The translations under genes and the position numbers were made by a program. From Tateyamaria omphalii (GTDB lineage Bacteria > Pseudomonadota > Alphaproteobacteria > Rhodobacterales > Rhodobacteraceae), in NCBI RefSeq assembly GCF_019802125.1, contig NZ_JAHVHT010000001.1, positions 992,001 through 1,056,000 on the forward strand: DNA of 64,000 nucleotides. The letters are read 5' to 3'. Positions 18,788-33,957 of the stretch are shown here, one piece after another. The notes under the pieces were generated by a model. It was not told the origin of the DNA. It was given only the letters and a program-made list of their open reading frames with translations, and made no database searches. How positions within the stretch are numbered: the stretch's first letter is position 1; every line of letters starts with the position of its first letter.

Positions 18788-18872
18788 GACCGAACCTTAC
18801 CAACAGGTTAAAACACCTCTGTAACCCCTTGAAATCGTGTCGCTGCACAGGCGTCCCAGCAAGGGACAAGAC

Positions 18873-20489
18873 ATGACCCGCGAACGCCTCTACCTTTTTG
18901 ACACCACATTGCGGGACGGCCAGCAAACCCAGGGGGTCCAATTCTCGACCCCCGAAAAACACCAGATCGCCCAGGCCCTCGATACCCTCGGCATCGACTA
19001 TATCGAAGGCGGCTGGCCGGGTGCCAATCCCACCGACAGCGCCTTTTTCGAGGACGCCCCCAAAACCCGCGCCACCTTCACCGCCTTTGGGATGACCAAG
19101 CGGGCGGGCATCAGCGCCGAAAATGACGATGTTCTGGCTGCGGTCCTGAATGCGGGCACGAAGGCCGTCTGCCTGGTCGGCAAGACGCATGATTTTCACG
19201 TCGAAAAGGCGCTCGGAATCTCTCTGCCCGAAAACACCACCAACATCTCCCAAACCTTCGCCCACCTCGCGGCCCAGGGGCGCGAGGCGATCTTTGATGC
19301 CGAACACTTTTTTGACGGGTTCAAAAGCAACCCCGACTACGCCCTGGAGGCCATCCACGCTGCCCACGACGCAGGCGCGCGCTGGATCGCTCTCTGCGAC
19401 ACAAACGGGGGCACGCTGCCCCATGAAATCCACGAGATCACCAAGGCCGTGATCGCATCAGGCATCCAAGGCGACCGGCTGGGCATCCACACCCACAATG
19501 ACACCGAAAACGCTGTCGCGGGGTCTTTGGCCGCCATCGACGCAGGCGCGCGGCAGATCCAGGGCACCCTCAACGGGCTGGGCGAGCGCTGCGGAAACGC
19601 GAACCTGACGGCCCTGATCCCCATCCTGCTGCTCAAGGAACCCTATGCCAGCCAGTTCGAAACGGGCGTGTCGCAAGAGGCGCTGGCAGGGCTGACGCGG
19701 ACAAGCCGGATGCTCGACGACATCCTGAACCGTGTGCCACAGAAACAGGCCGCCTTCGTCGGCGCATCGGCGTTCGCCCACAAAGCAGGGCTGCACGCCT
19801 CTGCCATCCTCAAGGACCCGACGACCTACGAGCATGTCGATCCGGCCACGGTCGGCAACACCCGCATCATCCCGATGTCGAACCAGGCCGGGCAGTCGAA
19901 CCTGCGCAAGCGCCTGGCCGAGATGGGGTTGGAGGTCCCGCCGAAGGACCCGGCTCTGGCCCGTATTCTGGACCGGATCAAGGCGCGCGAGGCGGAGGGG
20001 TATTCCTACGACACGGCGCAGGCGTCCTTTGAGCTGCTGGCGCGGGACGAGCTGGGGCTGCTGCCCGAGTTTTTCGAGGTCAAGCGCTACCGCGTGACCA
20101 TTGAGCGGCGCAAGAACAAGCGGGACCAGATGGTGTCGCTGTCCGAGGCGGTCGTGGTGGTGACGGTCGACGGGCAGAAGATGCTGTCGGTCAGCGAGTC
20201 CATGGACGAGGCAGGCACCGACCGTGGCCCTGTGAACGCGCTGGCCAAGGCCCTGGCCAAGGACCTGGGGCGGTACCAAACCTATGTCGAGGACATCCGC
20301 CTGGTCGACTTCAAGGTGCGCATCACCCAAGGCGGGACCGAGGCAGTCACCCGTGTCATCATCGACAGTGAAGACGGGCAGGGGCGCCGGTGGTCCACGG
20401 TGGGCGTGAGTGCGAATATCGTGGATGCGTCCTTTTCCGCCCTGCTGGACGCTATCCGATGGAAGCTGGTGCAGGATGGCGTGACATGA
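18873..20489 (+). CDS. cimA: (R)-citramalate synthase
   Basis: The 538-residue protein is a DRE-TIM family enzyme of the CimA type. It condenses pyruvate with acetyl-CoA to citramalate, which opens a threonine-independent route to 2-oxobutyrate and isoleucine. Motifs are LFDTTLRDGQQTQGVQFS (catalytic Arg-Asp near 12-14), HTHNDTENAVAGSLAAIDAG (metal-binding His-x-His), NGLGERCGNAN, and a C-terminal LeuA-type regulatory domain (about 400-538) where isoleucine feedback would act. The start at 18873 (MTRERLYLFD) is chosen over an ATG 12 codons upstream. It stands 85 bp after cysS. Homocitrate or isopropylmalate synthase is less likely given the sequence pattern. Confidence 0.88.
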   Translation: MTRERLYLFDTTLRDGQQTQGVQFSTPEKHQIAQALDTLGIDYIEGGWPGANPTDSAFFEDAPKTRATFTAFGMTKRAGISAENDDVLAAVLNAGTKAVCLVGKTHDFHVEKALGISLPENTTNISQTFAHLAAQGREAIFDAEHFFDGFKSNPDYALEAIHAAHDAGARWIALCDTNGGTLPHEIHEITKAVIASGIQGDRLGIHTHNDTENAVAGSLAAIDAGARQIQGTLNGLGERCGNANLTALIPILLLKEPYASQFETGVSQEALAGLTRTSRMLDDILNRVPQKQAAFVGASAFAHKAGLHASAILKDPTTYEHVDPATVGNTRIIPMSNQAGQSNLRKRLAEMGLEVPPKDPALARILDRIKAREAEGYSYDTAQASFELLARDELGLLPEFFEVKRYRVTIERRKNKRDQMVSLSEAVVVVTVDGQKMLSVSESMDEAGTDRGPVNALAKALAKDLGRYQTYVEDIRLVDFKVRITQGGTEAVTRVIIDSEDGQGRRWSTVGVSANIVDASFSALLDAIRWKLVQDGVT

Positions 20490-20526
20490 CGGGCCGCCAA
20501 GTTGCTTGCGGTACGACGTGCCGGAC

Positions 20527-21294
20527 ATGAGCCTCCCCGACGCAGTCGTTCCTTCTGCCCGCATCGTTGAACAGGGGGACCCGGACCGCTTTCGCACCGT
20601 GATGGCAGCGCCGGTTCCAGCCCGGGCCGTCCTCTTTCCCCTTTACGCCTTCAATGTCGAAGTGGCCCGTGCCCCTTGGGTGACGCAAGAAGCCATGATT
20701 GCCGAGATGCGCTTGCAGTGGTGGCGCGACGCGCTTCAGGAAATTGCCGAAGCGCGCGCGGTGCGCAAGCATGAGGTCACCACGCCCTTGGCTTCTGTTT
20801 TGACGCAGGCCGCTGCGCGCCGTCTTGATGAAGCTGTCGCCGCGCGCCGCTGGGACGTGTACCGTGATCCGTTCGAAGATGAGGCCCATTTCGACCGCTA
20901 TCTCGACCAGACCGCAGGGCATTTGATGTGGACCGCCGCCGAGGCCTTGGGCGCGCCCGCGGATCAGGAACAAGCCGTGCGCTCTGTGGCGGTAGCTGGC
21001 GCTCTGGTCGCCTTTTTGCGGGCCGTGCCCAAGCTGGAGGAGGCGGGGCGCATACCGCTGCTGGATGGAACGCAGGATGGTGTCGCAGCACTTGCCCGGC
21101 GCATCAGGATGCGCCTTACAACGCCGCGCCTGCCTGCGGATGCGCGCGCGGCGTTGTGGCCTGCTTTGGGATCAAGTCAGGCTTTGAAACAGATCGAGCG
21201 CGCTCCGGGCATGGTCGCGGATGGCGCAATACCTGCGCCAGTGGCTCCGTGGCGTTTGAGCGTGGCGGCTTTGACCGGGCGCGCGATGCTGTAA
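20527..21294 (+). CDS. Squalene/phytoene synthase-like protein
   Basis: The 255-residue protein has the trans-isoprenyl synthase helical pattern: YAFNVEVARAPWVTQEAMIAEMRLQWW and the second segment FDRYLDQTAGHLMW. The usual DxxxD-type metal motifs of carotenoid phytoene synthases are poorly kept (MRLQWWRDAL replaces the first), so it resembles the NDUFAF6-like branch, whose human member helps assemble complex I, more than a carotenoid enzyme. No carotenoid genes are adjacent. The ATG at 20527 is chosen; a TTG at 20506 is in frame upstream. Confidence 0.7.
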   Translation: MSLPDAVVPSARIVEQGDPDRFRTVMAAPVPARAVLFPLYAFNVEVARAPWVTQEAMIAEMRLQWWRDALQEIAEARAVRKHEVTTPLASVLTQAAARRLDEAVAARRWDVYRDPFEDEAHFDRYLDQTAGHLMWTAAEALGAPADQEQAVRSVAVAGALVAFLRAVPKLEEAGRIPLLDGTQDGVAALARRIRMRLTTPRLPADARAALWPALGSSQALKQIERAPGMVADGAIPAPVAPWRLSVAALTGRAML

Positions 21295-21314
21295 GGCGGA
21301 TCCGGGTCCGTCCG

Positions 21315-22538
21315 CTACGCTGTCACGGCGCGCTGCCGCATCACCAGCCAGATCAGCGATCCACCCGCCAGCACCAGGAATGGCACCATGGCGATGTTCA
21401 CCGCCGCCCAGCCCTCGACCGCGTCACCGCCTGCACAGTTCATCAACCCGCCCGAGGCCAGCGACGCCAGCGTCACGCCACCAAAGACAATCAGGTCGTT
21501 CATGCCCTGCATCCGTCCACGCTCTTGCGGGCTATGTGCGCCTGCCAGCATCGTGGTTGCGCCGATGAAGCCGAAGTTCCAGCCCAGACCGAGCAGGAAC
21601 AGGGCCCAGTAGAAGTTCTCCAGCTCGACACCTTGCAGCGCCACCACGCCCGCAAGGCCGAGGATGGCAAGGCCAAGGCCCATGATCCGCTCAACTCCGA
21701 ACCGCGAGATCAGGTGCCCGGTGAAAAAGGACGGGGCGAACATGGCGAGCACATGCACGGTGACGACGTTTGCCGCGTCTGGCTCGGTGAACCCGCAGCC
21801 GACGACGGCCAAAGGCGTGGATGTCATCACAAGGTTCATAAGGGCGTAGGATACTGCGGCACAGATGACGGCCACGGCAATGCGCGGATCGCGCAACAGC
21901 TCTTTGCGTGAGCGGCCCGGTCCGTCCGTGGCTGAGGGTGCGGGCGGCTTGGGGATGTCGAGCAAAAGGAACAGCGCCATGCCCATCAGGTTGAACCCCA
22001 TCGCGACCCAGTAGATCGGGATGTAGCGCGCGACGGTTGCGTCCGCCGTATCCGCCGTGACGTAGCCCACCACTTGCGGGCCGATGATGGCCGAGAGCAG
22101 GCCGCCTGCCATGACGTAGGAGATTGCTTTGGGCCGGAATGCATCTGATGCGGTGTCGGCGGCGGCAAAGCGATAAAAGCCCTGCGCGGACATATAGATA
22201 CCCGTCATGTAGCTGCCCACCAGGAACAGCCAGAAGCTGCCGATGCTGAGCGCCCAGACGCCAATTGCGGCCCCCAGAAGCCCGCCAAGGGCGCCCACGA
22301 TGAACCCGGTGCGTCGGCCAAAGCGCTGCATGACGTTTGACAGCCAAGGTGCCGCCGTCATCGACCCGAACACGATAAGAGATATGGGCAGCGTGGCGAG
22401 GCAGACAAATGGCGTGAGTTGCTGTCCCGCAAGCCCCGCCACCACGAACATCATGGTAATCTGGCTGCCGAGAAAGGCCTGCGCCGCCACGAGGACGGCC
22501 ACGTTGCGCTTGGCGCGTGTATCGTCGATTTGGGTCAT
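21315..22538 (-). CDS. MFS transporter
   Basis: The 407-residue protein has about twelve hydrophobic spans and the MFS loop 2-3 pattern WLSNVMQRFGRRTGFIVGALGG (about 65-86, DxxGRR variant). A hydrophilic central loop (IPKPPAPSATDGPGRSRKEL) separates two six-span halves. It should be a proton-driven inner-membrane transporter of the drug-efflux or nutrient type; the substrate is unknown. It converges with the phytoene-synthase-like gene (20 bp apart) and diverges from cobK. Confidence 0.85.
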   Translation of the reverse strand: MTQIDDTRAKRNVAVLVAAQAFLGSQITMMFVVAGLAGQQLTPFVCLATLPISLIVFGSMTAAPWLSNVMQRFGRRTGFIVGALGGLLGAAIGVWALSIGSFWLFLVGSYMTGIYMSAQGFYRFAAADTASDAFRPKAISYVMAGGLLSAIIGPQVVGYVTADTADATVARYIPIYWVAMGFNLMGMALFLLLDIPKPPAPSATDGPGRSRKELLRDPRIAVAVICAAVSYALMNLVMTSTPLAVVGCGFTEPDAANVVTVHVLAMFAPSFFTGHLISRFGVERIMGLGLAILGLAGVVALQGVELENFYWALFLLGLGWNFGFIGATTMLAGAHSPQERGRMQGMNDLIVFGGVTLASLASGGLMNCAGGDAVEGWAAVNIAMVPFLVLAGGSLIWLVMRQRAVTA

Positions 22539-22629
22539 GGGTGTTGACTATCCCCACGGCACGCGCCCGACAAGCGCGCGTTTGAGCACAGGTGCTTGCG
22601 CGCGGGGTGAACAGGGGTAGGGTGGCGCC

Positions 22630-23313
22630 ATGACACGGCTTCTGATCCTTGGTGGTTCGGCGATGACCGAACCCGCGCTGCATGCGCTGGCCGGGGCAGG
22701 GTATGATGTTTCGGTCTATTGGTCGCGCGATCCGATGCAGACCGATGCGCCTTGTGTGCGCGATTTGCGCGATGGTTTGCGGGGGGCAGATGCCATTGTC
22801 GATACGACCCATCCGTTCGACGATGCCGTGCGCTCCATCGCGGCGCGTCTGGCGCCTGACCTACCGCGCGTGCGCTTGCGTCGCCCCGGATGGGCCGCGA
22901 CGGCCAAGGATCAATGGCAGCACGTCGCCACGCTGGCCGATGCTGTGGCAGTGCTCCCGCCTAATGCGCGCGTCTTTGCAGCATCCGGTCGCGACAGCGC
23001 GGAGGTTCTGACCCATCATGATGGTCCCGTTTTTCTGCGCCAGTTGCATCGCCATGATGGTGCTGCACCATCGGGGTGTACATATGTCTTCGGCGCTGGA
23101 CCCTTTGATGTGGACGATGAAATCGCTTTGTTCCGGGAGATGGCAATCGACGTGGTTCTGGTTCGCAATATCGGGGGATCGGGCAGCTTTCCGAAACTGG
23201 CCGCAGCGCGGGCATTGGGTTTGCCGGCGGTCCTGATCGATCCGCCTGATAGCGGTTTTGACGTACAGGTGGATGACTGCGATGCGTTGCTGGCCTGGGT
23301 GAATGCCCTATGA
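22630..23313 (+). CDS. cobK: Precorrin-6A / cobalt-precorrin-6A reductase
   Basis: CobK reduces precorrin-6A to precorrin-6B with NADPH in cobalamin synthesis. The 227-residue protein has the N-terminal nucleotide-binding start RLLILGGSAMTEPALHAL and the family signature DTTHPFDDAVRSIAA (58-72), with VVLVRNIGGSGSFPKLAAA later. Here it is not inside a cob cluster; it overlaps an alkA-like gene by four bases, which in turn overlaps an esterase gene. The organism's NrdJ and MttB-like protein both point to a B12 need, consistent with a synthesis gene being kept. Confidence 0.9.
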   Translation: MTRLLILGGSAMTEPALHALAGAGYDVSVYWSRDPMQTDAPCVRDLRDGLRGADAIVDTTHPFDDAVRSIAARLAPDLPRVRLRRPGWAATAKDQWQHVATLADAVAVLPPNARVFAASGRDSAEVLTHHDGPVFLRQLHRHDGAAPSGCTYVFGAGPFDVDDEIALFREMAIDVVLVRNIGGSGSFPKLAAARALGLPAVLIDPPDSGFDVQVDDCDALLAWVNAL

Positions 23314-23942
23314 CAGCCGGGCGCATCATTGCAGCTGATGCTGATGTGGCAGAGGGGGCGGCCTGGCTGGCTGCGCGCGATCCGGCGCTGGCAAAAGCGC
23401 TGGATGTGGCGGGGCCGCTTCCGCTGCGCCGCAGGCCTGACGGATTTGCCGCCCTTCTGAACGCGATCATCGGACAGCAGGTCAGCACGGCGTCGGCCAA
23501 CGCGATCTGGGGCCGGTTGGAGGCGGGCGGCATGACAAGCCCGGCCCCTGTCCTCGCTGCGGGCGAAGAAGGTTTGCGGGCAGCGGGGCTCAGCCGTCAG
23601 AAGATCACTTACGCCATCGCGTTGGCCGAGGCGGGGATCGACTATGAGGCTTTGCGCGCTGCGCCCGATGCAGAGGTGATCGCGACGCTGACGGCCGTGA
23701 AGGGGATCGGCGTCTGGACGGCCGAGGTCTATGCCATGTTCGCCCTCGGACGCGCCGATGTCTTTGCACCGGGTGATCTGGCGTTGCAGGAAGCAGCGCG
23801 CATGATCTTTGACCTGCCTGAACGGCCCAAGGAAAAAAACCTGCGGCAAATGGCCGAGGACTGGTCGCCCTGGCGGGCGGTTGCTGCGCGGCTGTTCTTC
23901 ACCTACTACCGGGTCGCAAAGGGACGAGAGGGGATCACATGA
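23310..23942 (+). CDS. DNA-3-methyladenine glycosylase II (AlkA-like)
   Basis: The 210-residue protein is a helix-hairpin-helix glycosylase that should remove alkylated purines from DNA as the first step of base-excision repair. FAALLNAIIGQQVSTASANAI (46-66) is the typical first helix pair, LTAVKGIGVWTAEVY (127-141) is the hairpin with Gly-rich turn, and Asp156 in FAPGDLALQEA is the catalytic aspartate. Its start overlaps the cobK stop (ATGA) and its stop overlaps the esterase start, so all three are translated from one mRNA. Confidence 0.88.
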   Translation: MTAGRIIAADADVAEGAAWLAARDPALAKALDVAGPLPLRRRPDGFAALLNAIIGQQVSTASANAIWGRLEAGGMTSPAPVLAAGEEGLRAAGLSRQKITYAIALAEAGIDYEALRAAPDAEVIATLTAVKGIGVWTAEVYAMFALGRADVFAPGDLALQEAARMIFDLPERPKEKNLRQMAEDWSPWRAVAARLFFTYYRVAKGREGIT

Positions 23943-24604
23943 CGCGGGTATTGCAGGCAGGGCGGGTCGAGCCGCGGTCGGGGGAATTGCGGTCTATCGT
24001 CGTGTTCCTGCATGGCTACGGTGCCAACGGCGCGGACCTTCTGGGTCTGGCAGAGCCGCTTGGTGAACACCTGCCGGACACGCTGTTTGTGGCACCTGAT
24101 GCGCCCGAAACAATTCCGATGATGCCAAGCGGCTATCAGTGGTTCCCGATCCCCTGGATTGACGGGTCGTCCGAAGAGGAAGCAGAGCGCGGCCTGCGTG
24201 CAGCTGCGGAGGATCTGAACGCCTTTCTCGACGCGCTGATGGTGGATGAGGATGTGTTGCCCGAACAGGTCGTCCTCTTCGGCTTTTCACAAGGGACGAT
24301 GATGTCACTGCATGTGGCCCCGCGACGCGAAGATCCGGTTGCGGGGATCGTCGCGTTCTCCGGTCGCCTTTTGAACCCTGAGGTGCTGGCGGACGAGGTT
24401 GTCAGCCGTCCGCCCGTCCTGCTGATCCACGGCGATCAGGATGATGTCGTACCTCCGCAATCCCTGCCGCAAGCTGCAGAGGCCTTGCAGGGTGCAGGTT
24501 GGAAAGACGTCTATGCCCACGTCATGAAGGGCACAGCCCATGGAATCGCGCCCGATGGGCTGAGCGTTGCCTTGGCTTTCATGCGCGATAAATTGGGGCT
24601 CTGA
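23939..24604 (+). CDS. Carboxylesterase / lysophospholipase-like alpha/beta hydrolase
   Basis: The 221-residue protein is an alpha/beta hydrolase of the carboxylesterase (EstB, acyl-protein-thioesterase-like) group. The nucleophile elbow is GFSQG (Ser117), the oxyanion side is HGYGANGADL (25-34), and the triad is completed by an Asp in HGDQDDVVPP (164-173) and His201 in GTAHGIA. It lacks a signal peptide, so it acts in the cytoplasm on short acyl esters or lysophospholipids. It is the last gene of the cobK-alkA-esterase set. Confidence 0.85.
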   Translation: MTRVLQAGRVEPRSGELRSIVVFLHGYGANGADLLGLAEPLGEHLPDTLFVAPDAPETIPMMPSGYQWFPIPWIDGSSEEEAERGLRAAAEDLNAFLDALMVDEDVLPEQVVLFGFSQGTMMSLHVAPRREDPVAGIVAFSGRLLNPEVLADEVVSRPPVLLIHGDQDDVVPPQSLPQAAEALQGAGWKDVYAHVMKGTAHGIAPDGLSVALAFMRDKLGL

Positions 24605-24746
24605 CGCGAACAATACTGCCAAATCGGCTACTTTTTTCGCGGTTTCCCTTGATCTGGTGCCGCATCGGCACATTTGGTTTGCCCCATCGCCAAATCTGTG
24701 GCGCACTAATCGCATAATAACAAAGTGCGACACAGGGGGACGCGAA

Positions 24747-25340
24747 ATGAGGATGGCGCTGGCTGGGGGTATGGCCCTCGCCGCGGCAGTGCTGAGCATG
24801 AGTTTGACGGCACCCGCCACGGCCTTGAACATAGACGAAATGCAAACAACATCGGCTGCGGTCGACACGGAACTGGACCGCTCGGTTGTCTTGCGTTCGG
24901 TCCGGATGCCGGGTGCTTTTGGCAAGCTGCTCTTGGACATGGACGCAGACGCCGGCCTGATTGACCGCAAACGCGATGTGGACAACCTGACCGACGCGGA
25001 TGTGTGGGTGGTCGGGCTGAAAGGGTGGTCTGACACCGATTGGTTGGAAACCAGCCCCCTTCACAAACTCTTCGCGGCCCAACTGCATGCTGCCTCTCCG
25101 GTGCAGCGGTTCAAATCCTTTCAGTGGAATGTGCGGGGCGGCCAGATGATGGATGTCCATTTCGTCAATCTCAGCCGTGCGTCCGAACTGTCCGAAGCCT
25201 GCCTTGCCGAGCTGGTCTACCGCTTGTCACAGCGTGCCGTCACCAGCAGGCGGGTGGCCGATCTGTCGCTGGTCAGCCCGCGGGCCGAACCGCTGGTTGC
25301 GCTGGCCGAAGGTCCAGCGGATGCGGGGCATTGCAAGTAG
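24747..25340 (+). CDS. Exported protein of unknown function
   Basis: The 197-residue protein starts with a signal peptide (cleavage near ATA-LNIDE, about residue 26). The mature protein has no transmembrane segment and two cysteines near the C-terminus (SEACLAELV and GHCK). I do not recognise a domain. GGGGGA lies seven bases before the ATG at 24747; an ATG two codons later is also possible. It is preceded by 142 bp with AT-rich patches and followed by a DnaA-box region. Confidence 0.65.
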   Translation: MRMALAGGMALAAAVLSMSLTAPATALNIDEMQTTSAAVDTELDRSVVLRSVRMPGAFGKLLLDMDADAGLIDRKRDVDNLTDADVWVVGLKGWSDTDWLETSPLHKLFAAQLHAASPVQRFKSFQWNVRGGQMMDVHFVNLSRASELSEACLAELVYRLSQRAVTSRRVADLSLVSPRAEPLVALAEGPADAGHCK

Positions 25341-25350
25341 CGATGCACCC

Positions 25351-25359
25351 TGTGGATAA
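25351..25359 (-). promoter_or_regulatory. Exact DnaA box
   Basis: TGTGGATAA on the plus strand is the complement of TTATCCACA. It lies in the 185-bp gap before the HNH nuclease gene. It is one of four exact copies in the window; the others are at 5991, 27682 and 27758. Confidence 0.5.
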
Positions 25360-25525
25360 CCGTCACATGGCTGTCACGAACCTGTCCTATCCGACCTGCG
25401 ACATCTCGTGGTTGTCTCGGCACTTGTCAGACGCTTTCCACAAGATATAGTCACCATATAAAGCCGGGGCGGGTTCCCCGCTCTGGTGCCGATAACGGGC
25501 AGACAGGGCGAAGACGGAGTCACGA

Positions 25526-26110
25526 ATGGACGGCGATTTCAGGACAGAATTCACGCGCAGCCCCTCTGCGTTGAAACAGCACCCGGCGCTGGTGCTGAAC
25601 GCGGACTACAGGCCGCTCAGTTACTATCCGCTGTCGTTGTGGCCGTGGCAGGAAGCGATCAAGGCCGCGTGGCTCGATCGGGTGGACATCGTGGCCGAAT
25701 ATGATGAGGTCGTCCGCAGCCCGAGTACCGAGATCCGAATACCGTCAGTCGTTGTTCTCAAGGACTATGTCAAACCTCAAAAGCGCGTGGCCTTCACGCG
25801 CTTTAATTTATTTCTGAGGGACGAATTCCGTTGTCAGTATTGCGGGGCTAAGGGCGATCTGACCTTTGACCATGTTGTGCCGCGCGCATCGGGTGGCGTG
25901 ACAAGCTGGCAGAATGTGGTGGCAGCTTGCAGCCCCTGCAACCTGCGCAAGGGGTCCAAACCACTGCATCGGACCGGCATGGCGTTGCGCAAACCGCCAC
26001 GTCAGCCCGGGGCAGAGGAATTGCGCAATATGGGCCGTAAGTTCCCACCCAACCATCTGCATGAAAGCTGGATGGACTTCCTTTATTGGGATGCCGAGTT
26101 GGAGGCATAA
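25526..26110 (+). CDS. HNH endonuclease
   Basis: The 194-residue protein contains a complete HNH nuclease motif with zinc ligands: CQYCGAKGDLTFDHVVPRAS (103-122, two Cys plus the catalytic Asp-His), then N130 and CSPCNLRKG (135-143). The N-terminal 90 residues (LVLNADYRPLSYYPLSLWPW) are the conserved front part of the widespread chromosomal HNH proteins in alphaproteobacteria, which are not restriction enzymes. Its cellular target is unknown. No mobile-element context is present. A hairpin terminator follows. Confidence 0.88.
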   Translation: MDGDFRTEFTRSPSALKQHPALVLNADYRPLSYYPLSLWPWQEAIKAAWLDRVDIVAEYDEVVRSPSTEIRIPSVVVLKDYVKPQKRVAFTRFNLFLRDEFRCQYCGAKGDLTFDHVVPRASGGVTSWQNVVAACSPCNLRKGSKPLHRTGMALRKPPRQPGAEELRNMGRKFPPNHLHESWMDFLYWDAELEA

Positions 26111-26114
26111 AAAC

Positions 26115-26135
26115 ACGGGAGCCAGTGGCTCCCGT
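26115..26135 (-). terminator. Hairpin terminator between convergent genes
   Basis: ACGGGAGCC-AGT-GGCTCCCGT is a perfect 9-bp stem. On the minus strand it is followed by GTTTTTA, so it mainly terminates the exported-protein gene at 26165-26644, and may also stop HNH-gene transcripts from the other side. Confidence 0.75.
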
Positions 26136-26164
26136 TACTCGTTACAGACTGTTCAGTTTGAGCG

Positions 26165-26644
26165 TCATTGCAGCTTCTTGACGACGTTGTCGGCGAAGGC
26201 GGCGATGATCGCCTGGTAGTAGATGTCGCTACCCAGCGTCAGGTCTGCCATCACGGTGCCGTCCGGGAAGTACTGTTGCGCCTGATCCGTGGTCACAGTC
26301 AGTGTGTAACGCTCGTTGTTGGCCAGGCCGGGCACCTTGATCTTTACCTCACCGGACAGAACCGAGTCGGCCGTACCGATGCTTTGTTCAAAGCTGTTGG
26401 CCAATTCCACCTCGTCGATGTCGATTTCAATCTTGGCACCACGCTCTTCGATCTGTGGTGCAAGACGTTCGGCCAAGGCGGTTTCAAGGTCTGCATCAAG
26501 GCCAGACCAGACGGACGCGGCCTTTTCATTCTCGACTGCGGTCAGATCGGTTTGAACGTCGATTTCCCCGACCGGAGTTGCCGCCAAGGCGGCTGTGCCA
26601 GCCAGTGTCAGGGCGGCGGCGGTCGTCATCAAGAAGCGTTTCAT
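26165..26644 (-). CDS. Small exported protein of unknown function
   Basis: The 159-residue protein has a signal peptide (MKRFLMTTAAALTLAGTAAL, cleavage near residue 20) and a mature part of about 140 residues that is acidic, without cysteine, and ends in an amphipathic AIIAAFADNVVKKLQ. The pattern of alternating strands (GEVKIKVPGLANNERYTLTV) suggests a small beta-rich periplasmic protein. No domain is recognised. The start at 26644 is chosen over an upstream ATG because it gives a clean signal peptide. Confidence 0.65.
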   Translation of the reverse strand: MKRFLMTTAAALTLAGTAALAATPVGEIDVQTDLTAVENEKAASVWSGLDADLETALAERLAPQIEERGAKIEIDIDEVELANSFEQSIGTADSVLSGEVKIKVPGLANNERYTLTVTTDQAQQYFPDGTVMADLTLGSDIYYQAIIAAFADNVVKKLQ

Positions 26645-26727
26645 GTCGTCTCTCCTATCTTTCCGCACGCATTTCTGCGTGCTTGGGAGATACAACACCG
26701 TAGGCCCGAACTAGTTCCCAAGCGTTG

Positions 26728-27510
26728 TCAGGCGGCGAGGTCGACCCATACTGGAACGTGGTCCGACGGCTTCTCTTCTCCTCGCACGCCCTTGTCGATC
26801 TGGCAGTCGGTCATCAGGTCCGCGCAGGTCGGGCTGAGCAGGAAATGGTCGATGCGAATGCCGTCGTCCTTGTTCCATGCGCCGGCTTGGTAGTCCCAGA
26901 ATGAGTAGTGCCCCGGTCCGAAGGTACGGGCTCGGAACGCTTCGGTGAGGCCCAAGTTCAAGAGCCGCCGAAATGCGGTGCGGCTTTCCAGGCGGAACAG
27001 CGCGTCGTCGCGCCAATCATCGGGCCGCTTGGCGTCTTCGGCCTGCGGGATGATGTTATAGTCACCCGCCATAAGGAAGGGTGTTTCTTCGGCTAGTAGC
27101 TGGAGAGCACGGACACGCAGCCGCTCCATCCAGGCAAGTTTATAGTCGTATTTCGGACCCGGCGTCGGGTTGCCGTTTGGCAGGTACAGTCCACAGAGGC
27201 GAATGGCCTGCGTGTCGCCCATGACGGTCGCCTCGATGTAGCGCGCTTGTTCGTCGGTATCGTCGCCGGGCAGGCCGCGGGTCACATCCTCGAGCGGCAG
27301 CTTTGACAGGATTGCGACCCCGTTGAAGGACTTCTGGCCATGCGTTTCAACGTTGTATCCCCGATCCTCGAACAGTTCGGTGGGGAAGTTCTCATCCACG
27401 GACTTGATTTCCTGCAAAAGCACGACGTCGGGCTGTGCCTCGTCCAGCCAGCGTGGCAAAGCCTCGATCCGGGCCTTGATGCCGTTGATGTTGAATGTTG
27501 CGATTTTCAT
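26728..27510 (-). CDS. xthA: Exodeoxyribonuclease III
   Basis: XthA is the AP endonuclease and 3'-5' exonuclease of base-excision repair. The 260-residue protein has the family set: MKIATFNINGIKARI (1-15), LLQEIK with metal ligand Glu34, LMAGDYNI, WDYQAGAWNKDDGIRIDHFL and SDHVPVWVDL with the catalytic His near the end. The start is the ATG at 27510; a 13-codon extension upstream is not homologous. It diverges from the repeat-protein gene across the AT-rich DnaA/CtrA region. Confidence 0.95.
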   Translation of the reverse strand: MKIATFNINGIKARIEALPRWLDEAQPDVVLLQEIKSVDENFPTELFEDRGYNVETHGQKSFNGVAILSKLPLEDVTRGLPGDDTDEQARYIEATVMGDTQAIRLCGLYLPNGNPTPGPKYDYKLAWMERLRVRALQLLAEETPFLMAGDYNIIPQAEDAKRPDDWRDDALFRLESRTAFRRLLNLGLTEAFRARTFGPGHYSFWDYQAGAWNKDDGIRIDHFLLSPTCADLMTDCQIDKGVRGEEKPSDHVPVWVDLAA

Positions 27511-27598
27511 ATCCACCCCTTGCGCCGCTCCCTCCGACATGTCGCGCATCCTATCCGCAACGGCAAGCCCCTCGAACTGACCGCTTGAAGGGCGTAAA

Positions 27599-27613
27599 TT
27601 AACTATTTCTTAA
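27599..27613 (+). promoter_or_regulatory. CtrA binding site (TTAA-N7-TTAA)
   Basis: TTAACTATTTCTTAA followed by C is an exact full CtrA site. It is 269 bp upstream of the repeat-protein start (27868) and 89 bp upstream of the xthA start (27510). Confidence 0.65.
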
Positions 27614-27654
27614 CTATTCGATTCGCGCTAAAAATGACTAACCACATGCTGTGA

Positions 27655-27766
27655 TGTGAAAAAACGCATTGAAATCAGGGTTGTGGATAAGTTTTTTTGT
27701 TCTGAAACGTTCTGGTTTGAAGCTGGCCGCGACCAAATGGTTCTGCGGCTTTCCTTATGTGGATAA
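27655..27766 (-). promoter_or_regulatory. Cluster of three DnaA boxes
   Basis: TGTGAAAAA (27655-27663, fits TTWTNCACA on the other strand), TGTGGATAA (27682-27690) and TGTGGATAA (27758-27766) lie in the same orientation within 112 bp of AT-rich DNA. Confidence 0.55.
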
Positions 27767-27805
27767 GTTCCCAAGAACTCGCCTCTTACAAGAAAAATCC
27801 TTTTG

Positions 27806-27819
27806 TTAATCGCCTTTAA
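27806..27819 (+). promoter_or_regulatory. CtrA-like TTAA pair with 6-bp spacing
   Basis: TTAA-TCGCCT-TTAA followed by C, 48 bp before the repeat-protein start. The spacing is one base short of the consensus, so binding is uncertain. Confidence 0.35.
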
Positions 27820-27867
27820 CGGGCAACGCTTTTGATGTCTCAACTCAAAGGCGAAAGGAATTCAGCC

Positions 27868-28386
27868 ATGACAGCCCAACGCAAAATGAACCTCGCTCTC
27901 GACACCTCTGCATTGGGGGGATTGCACGCTGGTGAAGGTGTCGAAATGTTCTCGACCAGTAGCGCACCAGGCGCGATGGAAGCCATTCTTGGTGACGGTG
28001 TCGAGATGTTTTCGACCAGCAGCGCTCCTGTTGCGACCGACGTAACCGTCGGAGAAGGCGTGGAAATGTTCTCAACCAGCAGCGCACCGACCGCGACAGA
28101 CGCAACGATGGGTGAGGGTGTGGAAATGTTTTCAACCAGCAGCGCACCGACTGCCAAGGACGCAACGATCGGCGAGGGCGTCGAGATGTTTTCGACCAGC
28201 AGTGCGCCAGCAGCCACCGAGATTACGGCGGGCGATGGTGTGGAGCTTTTCTCGACCAGCAGCGGCCCGACGGCTTCGGATGTGACAACCGGCGATGCGA
28301 CCGGTGCGTTTTCTTCCGGCTCGGGTCCAGTGACAGGCACCGTCACGCAGCGTGATGTCACCGGCCTGTTCTCCTCGGGCTCCTGA
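27868..28386 (+). CDS. Tandem-repeat protein with eight 20-residue units
   Basis: The 172-residue protein has a 21-residue N-terminal segment (MTAQRKMNLALDTSALGGLH plus A), then seven exact-length 20-residue repeats and a final 11-residue piece. Units 1-5 read G(E/D)GVEMFSTSSAP plus seven variable residues; unit 6 has GVELFSTSSGP; units 7-8 drift to ATGAFSSGSGP and VTGLFSSGS. There is no signal peptide, no cysteine, no aromatic residue but one Phe per unit. AAAGGA precedes the ATG at 27868; ATG 27835 is a poorer start. The partner gene begins 45 bp downstream. The layout, leader plus repeated short cores, resembles multi-core peptide precursors, but a structural repeat protein is equally possible. 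It may belong to an uncharacterised Rhodobacterales DUF (possibly DUF6749, from memory). Confidence 0.75.
   Translation: MTAQRKMNLALDTSALGGLHAGEGVEMFSTSSAPGAMEAILGDGVEMFSTSSAPVATDVTVGEGVEMFSTSSAPTATDATMGEGVEMFSTSSAPTAKDATIGEGVEMFSTSSAPAATEITAGDGVELFSTSSGPTASDVTTGDATGAFSSGSGPVTGTVTQRDVTGLFSSGS
27931..28350 (+). repeat. Seven in-frame 60-bp tandem repeats
   Basis: Units start at 27931, 27991, 28051, 28111, 28171, 28231 and 28291. The DNA copies differ at many third codon positions while the GVEMFSTSSAP core stays fixed, so the repeats are old and kept by selection on the protein, not a recent slippage product. Confidence 0.9.
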
Positions 28387-28431
28387 CCCGCGTCGGCGGG
28401 ACATGATCACAGCACGTGAAAGGACACACCC

Positions 28432-29499
28432 ATGTCAAATATCATTGCGCTCAATGTCCCGCCGCGCCGTCAGCGCCTGGCCGAACGGACGGACAGGCTG
28501 ATTGACCTCTTTGCCACGCAACGTCGGCTTCCCGATGATGTGCATTGGTTGAAGGAAAACGCCGAATTGCTCAGCATCCTGGAATGTATCGGGATGCCGA
28601 TCACCCCGGCAGCGCTGGATCCACATGTGGACTTCTACGTCGGGTTGAAGGAGCGTTTGCAGTTCTTTCCGCAATACTACCGCTTCCTGCTGTCCATTGG
28701 TCTCGATCTCGAAGACCTGGGGCTGACGGGAACGGGCGTCGATGGCCAGATGGAGGATTTGTGTCACTGGGTTGCAGGGCAGGGGTTGCCCGATGCCGAA
28801 CTCAGCGATCTGCAACGCGCCGAAGCGCGTCGTCTGCTGGCCCGTCGTGGTGTCATATGTACTGCCGCAGACCGGTACCTTGACGAACGTCTGCGTGCTT
28901 TCATTGGCCGGTCACAGACCTTTGCCTTGCCCAACAAGAAGGCAGCATATGAACTGACGCACATCGTTTTCTACCTGTCAGAATACGGACGGCGCGACCC
29001 AGCCCTGGACGCTGGCGCGCTGCGGAGCCTCGAATACGTCGGTATTCTTGCCCATATGGACCAGAACATCGACCTGCTCGCTGAGGTGTGCATCGCGCTG
29101 AATCAGGCGGGTCAGCAGCCCAACGCTGTTTGGGTCGACGCGGTGCGAACCGCCATGGGCACATTCGTTGTCACCACGGACGACACTGTGGCGGCGGCTG
29201 ATGATTATCATGAATATCTGGTGGCAAATTGGGCAGGTCAGGTTCTGGGGTACGATGACACAAGCGCTGCCATTCCGGTAGGCCGCGCACGTTTCGATCA
29301 GACCGAGTACAGGCCGAGTGCGTTGCGCGGTGTGTCAGGTGCGCTGTTCGCCGCCGCCCAAACCAGAAGCAACGAGTGGCATCACATGTCTGACTATGTA
29401 TTCAGTTTGCTGGAAGATGACGCCGCATTGTTGTTGGAGGCGACAATCGCTTCCACTACGGAATTTGATGCATTCTTTGACGTGTTCGCGCGGGCCTGA
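28432..29499 (+). CDS. Uncharacterised helical protein partnered with the repeat protein
   Basis: The 355-residue protein is soluble and almost wholly alpha-helical in character, without signal peptide or membrane span. Notable conserved-looking stretches are DDVHWLKENAELLSILECIG (35-54), the motif AYELTHIVFYLSEYGRRDP (172-190) and ILAHMDQNIDLLAEVCIALN (205-224). The Thr-His-x3-Tyr and Asp-rich stretches could be catalytic, but I recognise no known enzyme. GAAAGGA before the ATG and the 45-bp gap make it one transcript with the repeat gene. I think this is an uncharacterised family (possibly DUF6902, from memory). A role in modifying or handling the repeat protein is inference from adjacency. 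Confidence 0.7.
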   Translation: MSNIIALNVPPRRQRLAERTDRLIDLFATQRRLPDDVHWLKENAELLSILECIGMPITPAALDPHVDFYVGLKERLQFFPQYYRFLLSIGLDLEDLGLTGTGVDGQMEDLCHWVAGQGLPDAELSDLQRAEARRLLARRGVICTAADRYLDERLRAFIGRSQTFALPNKKAAYELTHIVFYLSEYGRRDPALDAGALRSLEYVGILAHMDQNIDLLAEVCIALNQAGQQPNAVWVDAVRTAMGTFVVTTDDTVAAADDYHEYLVANWAGQVLGYDDTSAAIPVGRARFDQTEYRPSALRGVSGALFAAAQTRSNEWHHMSDYVFSLLEDDAALLLEATIASTTEFDAFFDVFARA

Positions 29500-29501
29500 G
29501 G

Positions 29502-29825
29502 CTACATCGAGAACGACGTGCCGCAGCCGCAGGAACTGGTGGCGTTCGGGTTGTTGATCACGAACCGGGCGCCGATCAACTCTTCGGAAAAGTCGATCAC
29601 GGCGTCGGAAAGGAAGGGCAGGCTGATGCTGTCCACGACAACTTTTTGGCCCGCGCCTTCCAATACGAGGTCGTCTTCTTTTGGGTCGTCCAGCGCGATC
29701 TCATACTGAAACCCGGAACATCCACCCCCTTCCACGGCCACACGCAGGGCCTGTCCCTGATCGGCGGCGCCAATCTCGGCCAGGCGTTCAAAGGCGCGGT
29801 CGGTGACTTTGGGTGGCATTTGCAT
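29502..29825 (-). CDS. erpA: A-type iron-sulfur cluster insertion protein (ErpA/IscA/HesB family)
   Basis: The 107-residue protein carries the three cluster-binding cysteines of A-type carriers: Cys36 in GGGCSGFQY and Cys99, Cys101 in SCGCGTSF. It passes Fe-S clusters to apo-proteins. The family assignment is sure; naming it ErpA rather than IscA or SufA is by the HesB-like ending and its place near xthA and dgt. GGAG nine bases upstream supports the ATG at 29825 over the one two codons later. It converges with the partner gene of the repeat protein (2 bp apart). Confidence 0.88.
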   Translation of the reverse strand: MQMPPKVTDRAFERLAEIGAADQGQALRVAVEGGGCSGFQYEIALDDPKEDDLVLEGAGQKVVVDSISLPFLSDAVIDFSEELIGARFVINNPNATSSCGCGTSFSM

Positions 29826-29905
29826 CTGCGTCTGCTCCGAACGGTTTTCATCGTGCTGCGTCTGCAATATATGCGCGACACGAACAGGCGACAAGGATTT
29901 GGCAG

Positions 29906-31039
29906 ATGTCCGCGCCCTATGCATCGGATCCAGCCCGCGCACGGGGACGGCGCTGGCCGGAAGAGGAGATGTCATTCCGCTCGCCATTTCAGCGGGACCG
30001 GGACAGGATCATTCATGCCTCGGCCTTTCGGCGGCTGAAGCACAAGACCCAAGTGTTCGTGGAACATGAGGGCGACTATTACCGAACGCGGCTGACCCAT
30101 TCGATCGAGGTAGCTCAAGTGGCGCGCACCATCGCGGGTGCCCTCGGCCTGAACGATTGCCTGACCGAAGCCGTGGCACTCGCCCATGATCTGGGCCATC
30201 CGCCCTTCGGTCATACGGGCGAGGACGCTTTGCAATCGCTCATGGCGCCCTATGGCGGCTTCGATCACAATGCCCAGGCGATCAAGATCGTGACGCGGCT
30301 CGAGTGTCACTATGCCGACTTCGACGGGTTGAACCTCACCTGGGAAGCCCTTGAAGGTATTGCAAAACACAATGGTCCTGTCGTCGGTGAGCTGCCTTAT
30401 GCGCTGGCTGAATATGACGCGGAACATGATCTGGAACTGGGCACCCATGCCAGTGCTGAGGCACAGGTGGCGGCCCTGTCCGACGACATCGCCTACAACA
30501 ATCACGACCTGCATGACGGATTGCGCGCCGGTTTGTTCAGCGAGGATAACATCTGCGACCTGCCCATGATCGGCCCGGCTTTTGCCGAGGTTGACAGGCT
30601 CTACCCGGATCTCGACCCCATGCGCCGGCGGCACGAAGGCTTGCGCCGCGTCTTTGCAGCCATGGTCACGGATGTGGTCGAAACTTCCCGCACCCTGCTC
30701 GCGGACAGCGGCGCGCAATCGGTGGAAGACATCCGCCATCTTGGTCGTCCAGTTGTGCGCTTTTCGGATGCCCTTTGGGCGGACCTGAAACAGATCCGAG
30801 CGTTCCTGTTTACCAATATGTACCGCGCTCCGTCCGTCATGGTCGAACGCGAGCGCGTCACGTGTATCGTCAACGATCTCTTTCCGCTTTTCATGTCCCG
30901 ACCTGACCTGCTGCCGCAGGAATGGCGGCGCAATGTGGACGCTGGTGATGAAATCGCGCTGGCGCGCAGCGTCTCGGACTATATCTCCGGCATGACGGAC
31001 CGCTTCGCACTGCAGGAACACACCCGTCTCACCGGCTAG
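29906..31039 (+). CDS. dgt: dGTPase-like deoxynucleotide triphosphohydrolase
   Basis: The 377-residue protein is an HD-domain hydrolase that splits dNTPs to deoxynucleoside and tripolyphosphate. Metal ligands are visible: His65 in TRLTHSIEV, the His-Asp pair 94-95 in LAHDLGHPPFGHTGE, and a later Asp in DDIAYNNHDL. It begins MSAPYASDPARARGRRWPEE with AAGGA upstream. It diverges from erpA with 80 bp between starts, and argS follows 60 bp downstream. It is the shorter alphaproteobacterial type rather than the 505-residue E. coli Dgt. Confidence 0.9.
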   Translation: MSAPYASDPARARGRRWPEEEMSFRSPFQRDRDRIIHASAFRRLKHKTQVFVEHEGDYYRTRLTHSIEVAQVARTIAGALGLNDCLTEAVALAHDLGHPPFGHTGEDALQSLMAPYGGFDHNAQAIKIVTRLECHYADFDGLNLTWEALEGIAKHNGPVVGELPYALAEYDAEHDLELGTHASAEAQVAALSDDIAYNNHDLHDGLRAGLFSEDNICDLPMIGPAFAEVDRLYPDLDPMRRRHEGLRRVFAAMVTDVVETSRTLLADSGAQSVEDIRHLGRPVVRFSDALWADLKQIRAFLFTNMYRAPSVMVERERVTCIVNDLFPLFMSRPDLLPQEWRRNVDAGDEIALARSVSDYISGMTDRFALQEHTRLTG

Positions 31040-31099
31040 TCCCGCTTGACGCTTGAGGTGCGCGTGATACACCGCGCGCACCCAATGAATAGGCCCCAA

Positions 31100-32842
31100 A
31101 TGAACCTCTTTGCCGACATCCGCGCCCTTGTGCTGACCAACCTTGCCGCCATGGTCGAGGCGGGCCAGCTGCCCGAAGGTCTGGCGACCGACAACGTCAC
31201 GGTCGAGCCACCCCGCGATGCGGCACACGGCGATATGGCGACCAACGCCGCGATGGTGCTGGCGAAACCCGCCAAGATGAAGCCGCGCGACATTGCCGAG
31301 ATGCTGGCCGAAAGACTGGCCGACGATACGCGGATCACCAGTGCCGAAGTGGCAGGCCCCGGCTTTCTGAACCTGCGGCTGGACCCGTCGGTCTGGCAAG
31401 GCGTTGTCGCTGCCGTCCTGCAAGCGGGCGAGGACTATGGCCGCTCTGACCTTGGCGCGGGCAAGAAGGTCAACGTCGAATACGTCTCCGCCAACCCCAC
31501 CGGCCCACTGCATGTGGGTCACACACGGGGCGCGGTCTTTGGCGATGCGCTGGCATCTCTGCTGGATTTTGCAGGCCACGATGTCACACGGGAATACTAT
31601 ATCAATGACGGCGGCGCGCAGGTCGATGTGCTCGCGCGCTCCGTCTATCTCCGCTATCTCGAAGCGCACGGGCAGGAAGTGGCGTTCGAGGACGGCACCT
31701 ATCCGGGCGACTACCTGATCGGTGTGGGTGAAGCACTCAAGGCCAAGGTGGGCGACGCCTTTGTCGACAAGGGCGAGCAGTTCTGGCTGGCCGAAGTGCG
31801 CGAGTTCGCAACAGAAGCCATGATGAACCTGATCCGCGATGACCTCGCCGCACTCGGCGTCGAGATGGACGTGTTCTATTCCGAAAAGTCGCTCTATGGC
31901 ACAGGCCGGATCGAAGCCGCGCTGGATGATCTGCGGTCCAAGGGGTTGATCTACGAAGGCGTGCTCGAACCGCCCAAAGGCAAGAAGCCCGAGGATTGGG
32001 AGCCGCGCGAGCAGACCCTGTTTAAATCCACCGACCATGGCGACGACGTGGACCGGCCCGTCATGAAATCGGACGGGTCCTGGACCTATTTCGCGCCCGA
32101 CATCGCCTATCACTATGACAAGGTGCAGCGCGGGTTCGACGCGCTGATCGACGTATTCGGTGCCGACCACGGTGGTTATGTCAAACGAATGAAAGCGGCC
32201 GTTAGCGCACTCTCGGACGGCAAGGTGCCGCTCGACATCAAGCTGACGCAGCTGGTGAAGCTGTTCAAGAACGGGCAGGAGTTCAAGATGTCCAAGCGGG
32301 CAGGGACCTTTGTCACCCTGCGCGACGTCGTGGACGAGGTTGGCCCGGACGTGACCCGCTTCATGATGCTGACGCGCAAGAACGACGCAATGTTCGACTT
32401 TGACCTCGACGCCGCCCTTGAGCAGTCCAAGGAAAACCCGGTGTTCTACGTCCAGTACGCACACGCGCGGGTGAAATCGGTTCTGCGCAAGGCGGGAGAG
32501 GCGGGCATCGCCGCTGATGACGCGACGCTTGCAGCCGCCGATCTGACCAAACTGGATCACGAGGCCGAATGGGCGCTTGCCGCCAAGCTGGCCGAGTGGC
32601 CGCGGCTGGTGGAGACTGCCGCCCGCACGAACGAGCCACACCGGATCGCATTCTACCTCTATGATCTCGCTGGTGTCTTCCACGGGCTCTGGAACCGGGG
32701 CAACGATCTGCCCGAATTGCGCTTTTTGCAGGACGACGCGGCCACCTCGCAGGCAAAAATCGCACTGGCCCGTGCCTCTGCCGTTGTAATTGCAGCGGGC
32801 CTTGGTATTCTTGGTGTGAAACCAGCCGAAGAGCTGCGTTAA
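31100..32842 (+). CDS. argS: Arginyl-tRNA synthetase
   Basis: The 580-residue protein is a class I synthetase with the N-terminal Add-1-type domain ([20 protein letters not shown]), [16 protein letters not shown] containing the HIGH motif HVGH (about 137-140), and [10 protein letters not shown] (about 395-404) in the KMSKS position. The C-terminal DALR anticodon domain occupies roughly 465-580. The ATG at 31100 matches the usual ArgS opening; ATG 31085 is five codons upstream. It is second in the run dgt-argS-SPOR-nagZ-scpA-scpB. Confidence 0.95.
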
Positions 32843-32952
32843 CGCTCCGCAAACGGGGCACACAGGCACACTTCCCAAGGCACGCGATCACGCGGGCGCT
32901 AACAGACAGATGACTTGCGCGGGCACGTATCCGCGCGGGCAATGAGGCAGAG

Positions 32953-33957
32953 ATGGCAGATATGCACTACACCCACGAGATGGGTCACGGGGGCTATGAT
33001 GCGCATGATGAAGCATCCGCGCCGCCTTCGAACGTTTTGAAAAACCTCACGAATTTCGCGGGAGCTGCCGTGTCGCTCGCGCTGATTGCTGGCGTGTCCG
33101 TCTGGGGCTACAAGCTGGTGATGCGCGACGTGTCTGGCATCCCCGTCGTGCGCGCCGCCGAAGGCGAAATGCGTGTGCGCCCTGAGAACCCCGGTGGGCA
33201 GCTGGCCCGCAACACTGGCCTGGCCGTCAACGAAGTGGCCGCTGCGGGTGAAGCCTCGGGGCCCGTCGATCAGGTCACGCTGGCCCCACGCCCCGTCGAT
33301 CTGACAGAGGAAGATCAGCCGGTTCCCGCGCAAGCCGTGGCGCCCGTGCAACAACCCGAACCGCTCGACGTAGAAGCCAGCCTCGATGCGCCACAGCTGG
33401 ACGTGGCAACAGCCCTTGCCGAAGGCAATGTCGATGACCTCGTGAACCAGCTCACAGCTGGCGTAGACACAATTGAAGCCGCCCCGATCGAAGATGCAGT
33501 TGCCGAAGCCGTGCTGGCCAGCGTCAGCGCAGCCGATCTGCCGGAAACACCGACGCCTGTGCCCGCGGTGGTCAAGGGGCCGGGGCCTCAAACCTCCGTG
33601 CGGCCGCAACTGCGCCCCGCATCCACCCCGAAAACGGTCACACGTGCACCGACGGAGGTTGCTGCAACGTCCCAAACATCCGAACTGGACGCTGCAGCCA
33701 TCCCGACCGGGACGCGGCTTGTGCAGCTTGGCGCGTTCGACACCCCCGACATTGCCCGCGCGCAATGGGATCAGATGCAGGGTCGCTTTGGCGATCTGCT
33801 GCACGACAAGCAGCGGATCGTTCAACAGGCGCAATCGGGCGGTCGCACCTTCTACCGCTTGCGCGCGCACGGCTTTGCCGACCTCAGCGATGCGCGCCGC
33901 TTCTGCTCGGCCCTTGTTGCTGAAGGTGCCGACTGCATCCCGGTCGTCACACGATGA
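32953..33957 (+). CDS. SPOR-domain membrane protein
   Basis: The 334-residue protein has a cytoplasmic N-terminus of about 37 residues, one membrane span (about 38-56), a long alanine-, proline- and glutamate-rich periplasmic linker, and a C-terminal SPOR domain (about 252-334: RLVQLGAFDTPDIARAQWDQ and FYRLRAHGFADLSDARRFCS). SPOR domains bind denuded peptidoglycan at the septum, so it probably acts in cell division or wall remodelling. Its stop overlaps the nagZ start, consistent with a shared wall-recycling context. Confidence 0.9.
   Translation: MADMHYTHEMGHGGYDAHDEASAPPSNVLKNLTNFAGAAVSLALIAGVSVWGYKLVMRDVSGIPVVRAAEGEMRVRPENPGGQLARNTGLAVNEVAAAGEASGPVDQVTLAPRPVDLTEEDQPVPAQAVAPVQQPEPLDVEASLDAPQLDVATALAEGNVDDLVNQLTAGVDTIEAAPIEDAVAEAVLASVSAADLPETPTPVPAVVKGPGPQTSVRPQLRPASTPKTVTRAPTEVAATSQTSELDAAAIPTGTRLVQLGAFDTPDIARAQWDQMQGRFGDLLHDKQRIVQQAQSGGRTFYRLRAHGFADLSDARRFCSALVAEGADCIPVVTR

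Follow-up and report, generated by a model that had tools for sequence, protein, structure and literature searches.

In the window, i.e., the whole stretch of 64,000 nucleotides of Tateyamaria omphalii DNA analysed here, a gene for a repeat protein (27868..28386, + strand) is followed by a gene for a protein of the Pfam family DUF6902 (28432..29499, + strand), and the two probably form a substrate-enzyme pair which makes a modified peptide. A probability of roughly 0.7 is assigned to this reading, which was obtained by comparison of sequences. The repeat gene would encode a multi-core precursor, probably the raw material for small modified peptides, and the DUF6902 protein of 355 residues is the candidate core-modifying enzyme. 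The best reading of the whole is a stand-alone RiPP system, perhaps an epimerising one, with a multi-core branch in Rhodobacteraceae. A probable substrate can now be named for DUF6902, so far a Pfam domain without known function, and in this family of marine bacteria the species-specific cores (45 of the 149 genomes sampled) suggest an overlooked peptide class.

The repeat gene and its cores

The repeat ORF opens with an ATG at 27868, ends with a stop codon at 28384-28386 and encodes 172 residues. An alternative opening at an upstream TTG (27832) appears in the mechanical ORF list, and an AAGGA 5' of the ORF represents a candidate ribosome-binding site. Reading the ORF bore out its position, the 21-residue leader-like segment and the eight 20-residue repeats given in a preliminary description of this DNA. 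The leader (27868..27930, + strand) starts with MTAQRK, which fits the motif M-[TSN]-A-[QL]-x-K, and is followed by eight units at seven intervals of exactly 20 residues or 60 bp. Units 1 to 6 (27931..28290, + strand) comprise 60 bp each, with the core pentamer FSTSS encoded by codons 7-11 of every unit; G-x-G-V-E-M-F-S-T-S-S-A-P is exact in units 1-5, and unit 6 reads GDGVELFSTSSGP. Units 7 and 8 (28291..28383, + strand) end in the core FSSGS, whose last residue is at the same time the end of the protein. Tandem Repeats Finder reported a 60-bp period for positions 27930-28211 with 76% matches and zero indels, and the repeats are therefore exact in length, not in sequence. The array is conserved as a peptide and not as DNA: among the six FSTSS units of the window, the 13-residue core block features a pN of 0.045 vs. 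a pS of 0.713, and the 7-residue linker a pN of 0.374 vs. a pS of 0.773. Accordingly, the values of the core block confirm that selection acts on the peptide, as had been proposed. Scans of the repeat protein against Pfam and NCBIfam gave no match above chance, and both the promoter scan (2 vs. 0.9 +/- 1.1 in shuffles) and the terminator scan (2 vs. 2.4 +/- 1.7) remained within noise.

Core statistics were collected from 43 precursors with 297 units, which were chosen by G at position -6, F, Y or M at core position 1, and spacing. Pairs of units within the same protein agree at core positions 2-5 with 0.93, 0.97, 0.90 and 0.90, whereas the agreement of the consensuses between species amounts to 0.27, 0.63, 0.35 and 0.48. 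At positions -5 to -1, agreement within the proteins reaches only 0.48-0.63 (297 units), and where residues at core positions 2-5 are identical, the codon differs in 0.34-0.52 of the pairs. A pentamer which is nearly invariant within a protein and variable between species, with varying codons, is the signature of a multi-core precursor, and the architecture suggested in the preliminary description is well supported by this comparison. The motif-ending pentamer, FSTSS in the window, is replaced by FTSGS, FTSWS, FCSAS, FTTSM, MMCCS or YIAGL in other species, and FVSWS and FPSWS are further cores among the relatives. Because FVSWS, FPSWS, MMCCS and YIAGL exist, the Ser/Thr-rich character formerly attributed to the core is not required; S, T or C occupies core position 3 in all species consensuses but FTNWC and YIAGL (41 of 43).

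The number of units ranges from 2 to 20 across the 43 precursors, some of them being cut by contig ends, and 27 of these proteins end exactly in the core pentamer (at most two mismatches to their own consensus, determined by script). The strict leader motif is present in 23 of the 43 family-sample precursors, and three others (G027, G053, G056) are cut by contig ends; the recognition-segment pattern G-[DE]-x-[VT]-x-[ML] occurs in most units. Homologues which have lost the repeats and kept the N-terminal segment, named beforehand as the case speaking against a multi-core precursor, were absent among the 43 family-sample precursors and 79 precursors from named genomes, two sets which have 12 loci in common and include some precursors cut by contig ends. 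Besides, the precursors L130 (G829, 7095-7616) and L131 (G857, 7716-8192) repeat the core STSSF with the aromatic residue last, and the "F first" core is hence not universal.

Tateyamaria itself reveals a switch of the core. Most units read FSSGS in 10 of the 15 Tateyamaria loci; the other five, which have the highest identity to the window, combine FSTSS in the upstream units (one unit FSTCS) with FSSGS in the last, and the window follows the pattern of these five. As the last unit is FSSGS even where the upstream units are FSTSS, FSSGS is probably the older core, and the switch probably spread through the upstream units. The "drift" of the last units to FSSGS assumed earlier is probably wrong in view of the ten loci in which this core prevails.

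Gene pairing and genomic locus

The DUF6902 gene starts 45 bp 3' of the repeat gene. Among 149 genomes of the same family, DUF6902 was found in 45 and a repeat-protein match in 40 (the window's own genome included), and all 40 fall within the 45 (Fisher p 4e-31, kinship uncorrected). When the DNA was read, 43 of the 45 genomes proved to have a repeat ORF upstream of DUF6902 in the same orientation, with 32-342 bp between its end and the DUF6902 match; among them are three ORFs which the protein search had missed (G099, MMCCS; G041, YIAGL; G138, FPSGS). Of the remaining two genomes, one (G139) is interrupted by the end of a contig, and the other (G039) lacks a detectable precursor. Likewise, four of four extra family genomes (G170, G829, G834, G857) possess the repeat ORF. 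A scan of named genomes, which partly overlaps the family sample (12 of 80 loci identical), yielded 362 stretches encoding DUF6902 relatives, with an upstream repeat ORF in 79 of the best 80; the single locus without a counted repeat ORF (L186) is masked there by a run of N. The loci nearest to the window among these best 80 belong to Tateyamaria, and by their record titles all 80 come from genera of the Rhodobacteraceae type or from alphaproteobacterial bins of unspecific name; the pair is also carried by a strain named Ruegeria pomeroyi (L180). When 385 genomes were sampled across the class, four gave a DUF6902 match above the cut-off, all from the window's family and including the window's own; G151 of this sample stayed below the DUF6902 cut-off and encodes a DUF6895-type protein. 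Plasmid records contained no DUF6902 match at E <= 1e-3. Moreover, the distance between enzymes tracks the distance between cores beyond that of xthA (partial Mantel r 0.354, 14 of 5000 permutations, 39 genomes), and the correlation allowing for dgt is similar in direction (partial Mantel r 0.231, 94 of 5000 permutations, 38 genomes).

At the 43 family-sample loci, xthA lies upstream in 39 (the contigs of the other four begin there) and erpA at most 3 kb downstream in 37, with both being present in 33. In genomes without DUF6902, xthA and erpA are still close in 11 of 11 sampled; the gaps between the aligned parts of the two genes measure 36 and 65 bp in two of these genomes, and others have a wider interval with unrelated sequence in between. 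The variability of the xthA-erpA interval is also apparent in L224-L235, where it is near-empty or occupied by unrelated genes (Hint-domain-like or sulfotransferase-like, judged by eye). A gene for an EamA-family carrier directly 3' of DUF6902 was found at 34 of the 43 family-sample loci (27 by script, 7 overlapping ones by eye) and at 47 of the best 80 named loci, with 32 lacking it and one being too short. It is absent from the window locus and from all 15 Tateyamaria loci, and its best match in the genome to which the window belongs has an identity of 30%.

The immediate neighbours of the window pair encode exodeoxyribonuclease III, an ErpA/IscA-like protein, a dGTPase and ArgS. Besides the pair, 14 genes of the window (18837-33957) were scanned; they are ordinary genes of metabolism or repair or hypothetical genes, without any match to ATP-grasp, YcaO, LanM or radical-SAM proteins or another known RiPP enzyme. 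Graspetides, lanthipeptides, YcaO-dependent and radical-SAM RiPPs are thereby not indicated, as the enzyme of each class is absent from these 14 neighbours. Lasso peptides are defined by a lasso cyclase and a B-protein peptidase beside the precursor; neither was found among the 14 genes, and the window pair does not belong to the lasso peptides by this definition. In multi-core graspetides, a leader and repeated cores are combined in one precursor and served by a minimal enzyme set which requires an ATP-grasp ligase. The window pair resembles them in its leader, its repeated cores and a likewise minimal enzyme set, but differs in having no ATP-grasp ligase among the scanned neighbours. What the repeat gene and DUF6902 do provide is a ribosomal precursor with leader and cores, co-encoded with a candidate modifying enzyme.

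The DUF6902 protein and its DUF6895 relatives

The protein encoded at 28432-29499 matches Pfam DUF6902 with an E-value of 8.4e-152 and additionally DUF6895 with 1.7e-20. Direct comparison of the two profiles by hhalign resulted in a probability of 94.7 and an E-value of 5.6e-8, with 18% identity over 196 columns. In the numbering of the window protein, H177, D214, E218, Y259 and H260 occur without exception in the DUF6902 (43 of 43) and DUF6895 (9 of 9) proteins compared, and the nine DUF6895 proteins have Y-x-x-[ST]-H, D, E and Y-H conserved in the same way; Y173, F180 and G186 are present in all nine DUF6895 proteins and in 42, 41 and 43 of the 43 DUF6902 proteins, respectively. Invariance of the H, D, E and Y-H was likewise obtained from four DUF6895 proteins aligned on their own. 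By profile match and common conserved residues, DUF6902 and DUF6895 thus form one superfamily, and the five invariant residues constitute the putative active site of the DUF6902 protein. The AlphaFold2 model of this protein is confident and almost all-helical (pLDDT 92.9, pTM 0.91). Searching the PDB sequences with the DUF6902 profile produced three matches without significance (E 0.5-0.8), and Foldseek found no match of the model in the PDB at E <= 0.001; drimenol synthases, considered as fold relatives, were rejected with best TM-scores of only 0.36 among the 50 matches listed. As the model has no convincing solved relative, the putative active site was delineated from conservation. A corresponding AlphaFold model of a DUF6895 protein, built from only 4 sequences, was discarded as poor (pLDDT 59.9).

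By the title of Shi et al. (ACS Catal. 2026, cited in PMC13352647), DUF6895 is a lasso-peptide epimerase family. The preliminary description had stated that no known RiPP enzyme is adjacent to the repeat gene, which has to be corrected insofar as the next gene encodes a homologue of this family, going by that title. Nine DUF6895-type loci were inspected, namely those of G621, G690, G451, G151 and G817 and those on plasmids of Kitasatospora, Streptomyces (two) and Pseudalkalibacillus; L134 and L135 fell below the DUF6895 cut-off with apparently unrelated ORFs and were left out of the nine. A short leader-plus-core peptide is encoded directly upstream of the DUF6895 gene at seven of the nine loci, which belong to Pseudomonadota, Actinomycetota and Bacillota. 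In these peptides, an aromatic core, e.g., W..YVLVV, WFVLAG or NYVYKG, goes with a leader of related sequence ([SAN]-G-[ILA]-[ILV]-[DN]...), and at two of the seven loci one ORF contains two leader-core units. At the other two of the nine loci, those of G817 (L132) and Streptomyces fungicidicus (L247), the leader peptide was not seen upstream; the ORF of G817 has 215 residues and matches at the DUF6895 level with 38.9 bits. The plasmid operon of Streptomyces fungicidicus (L247, 4833-7600) contains two tandem DUF6895 genes behind a different peptide of 62 residues. At the proteobacterial locus L125 (7104-7703), the DUF6895 gene is preceded by genes for two paralogous peptides of the leader-plus-core kind. 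Upstream lie genes for a papain-like peptidase, a methyltransferase and an MFS carrier, and the locus is a candidate for a larger gene cluster around this enzyme family. Around three other DUF6895 loci, scanning of the neighbouring genes revealed no RiPP enzyme.

One DUF6902 gene deviates from all others. The copy of G039 (L103, 8831-9928) is found in the same place without a detectable precursor and reads Q, L, R, L and T at H177, D214, E218, Y259 and H260. It retains 27 of the 66 columns which are common to at least 42 of the 43 other DUF6902 proteins, among them G186 and D257, and has lost 39. Since this copy is divergent throughout, a loss of all five residues by chance has a probability of about 0.06. 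In this one case, the residue loss fits a loss of function along with the substrate, and the copy may be a decaying or repurposed enzyme; alternatively, G039 may have a very divergent precursor beyond detection.

Proposed mechanism, alternatives and known systems

In the mechanism proposed, the ribosomal precursor would consist of the leader and eight recognition segments (most of them of the pattern given above), each with a five-residue core. DUF6902 would bind this precursor via its leader, its G-[DE]-x-[VT] segments or both, and would alter one or more core residues. The likeliest change would be the conversion of core residue(s) to the D form by the conserved His/Asp/Glu/Tyr-His set, as is suggested by the homology to DUF6895 and the title of the paper on that family. 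Short peptides would then be freed by proteases encoded elsewhere (no peptidase is seen within the pair), and in many relatives the next-in-line EamA-family carrier could export the product. Because many loci lack EamA, such export can be at most part of the story. Epimerisation is favoured due to that title and the freedom of the core side chains, and as the specific chemistry of DUF6902 it has about an even chance. Given the species-specific cores, a role of the product in signalling or competition is a speculation.

A different chemistry of the same pair, with DUF6902 dehydrating, cyclising, cleaving or otherwise processing the cores and epimerisation being confined to the lasso-linked DUF6895 branch, is possible but rather doubtful; it overlaps the preferred reading, which leaves the chemistry open. 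Such a chemistry would suit the distance of the DUF6902 branch (18% identity over 196 columns) and the prevalence of S, T or C at core position 3, which fits a hydroxyl- or thiol-directed reaction. However, FTNWC and YIAGL do without these residues at position 3, the remaining positions vary freely, and none of the ATP-grasp, YcaO, LanM or radical-SAM enzymes was met in the 14 scanned neighbours. Dehydration of Ser/Thr as the general chemistry was down-weighted in view of the cores YIAGL and MMCCS. Less probable still, and on the whole unlikely, is a structural or binding repeat protein whose units bind a metal, ligand or partner, with DUF6902 acting as chaperone or binding partner. The regular spacing of the units and the almost all-helical prediction for DUF6902 agree with such a function, as does the circumstance that modification of the protein is an indirect conclusion; yet a core that is uniform in each protein and contains W, C, M or L in other species, a unit number between 2 and 20 (some precursors cut by contig ends) and residues of a catalytic kind common to DUF6902 and DUF6895 argue against it. 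A neutral DNA tandem repeat in a dispensable ORF, for which the varying copy number might be quoted, is rejected as having a negligible chance because of the codon data (pN vs. pS of the core block), and the near-constant pairing with DUF6902 stands against it as well.

For the preferred substrate-enzyme pair, the closest known system is the DUF6895 lasso-peptide epimerase of Shi et al., with which it has the homologous enzyme family and, according to the title of that work, the action with a ribosomal peptide in common. It differs from this lasso system by its own Pfam family, DUF6902, by the multi-core candidate substrate and by the absence of a lasso cyclase and leader peptidase among the scanned neighbours. 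A D residue in a ribosomal peptide, the outcome proposed here, is likewise generated by MslH, described in PMC10406935 as the metal-dependent D-Trp epimerase of the lasso peptide MS-271, acting on the C-terminal Trp of the precursor. By this description, MslH is set apart from the DUF6902 proposal through its metal dependence and its C-terminal Trp target, and it was absent from the matches listed in the PDB sequence and structure searches with DUF6902. In the open-access literature searched, no mention was found of DUF6902 or of six core strings, DUF6895 is named in one paper, PMC13352647, and broader RiPP searches contained nothing on the repeat protein/DUF6902 system among the matches listed. 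The system is undescribed in the sense that it was not found in this literature.

Extended to the whole superfamily, the comparisons would allow for a stand-alone class of ribosomal D-peptides in at least three phyla, for which one enzyme and one precursor would suffice; in Rhodobacteraceae, the multi-core form would yield a short, species-specific D-peptide in many copies, perhaps as a species signal exported by EamA. We regard this wider picture as conceivable, with the odds somewhat against it. A single enzyme able to act on numerous short cores of varying sequence would make a useful tool for peptide modification. As a minor observation on the units themselves, some cores in the precursors L178, L185, L199 and L068 (G100) are only 8 residues apart (e.g., FTSGLVQMFTSGL), which hints that a core with three spacer residues may suffice as a unit.
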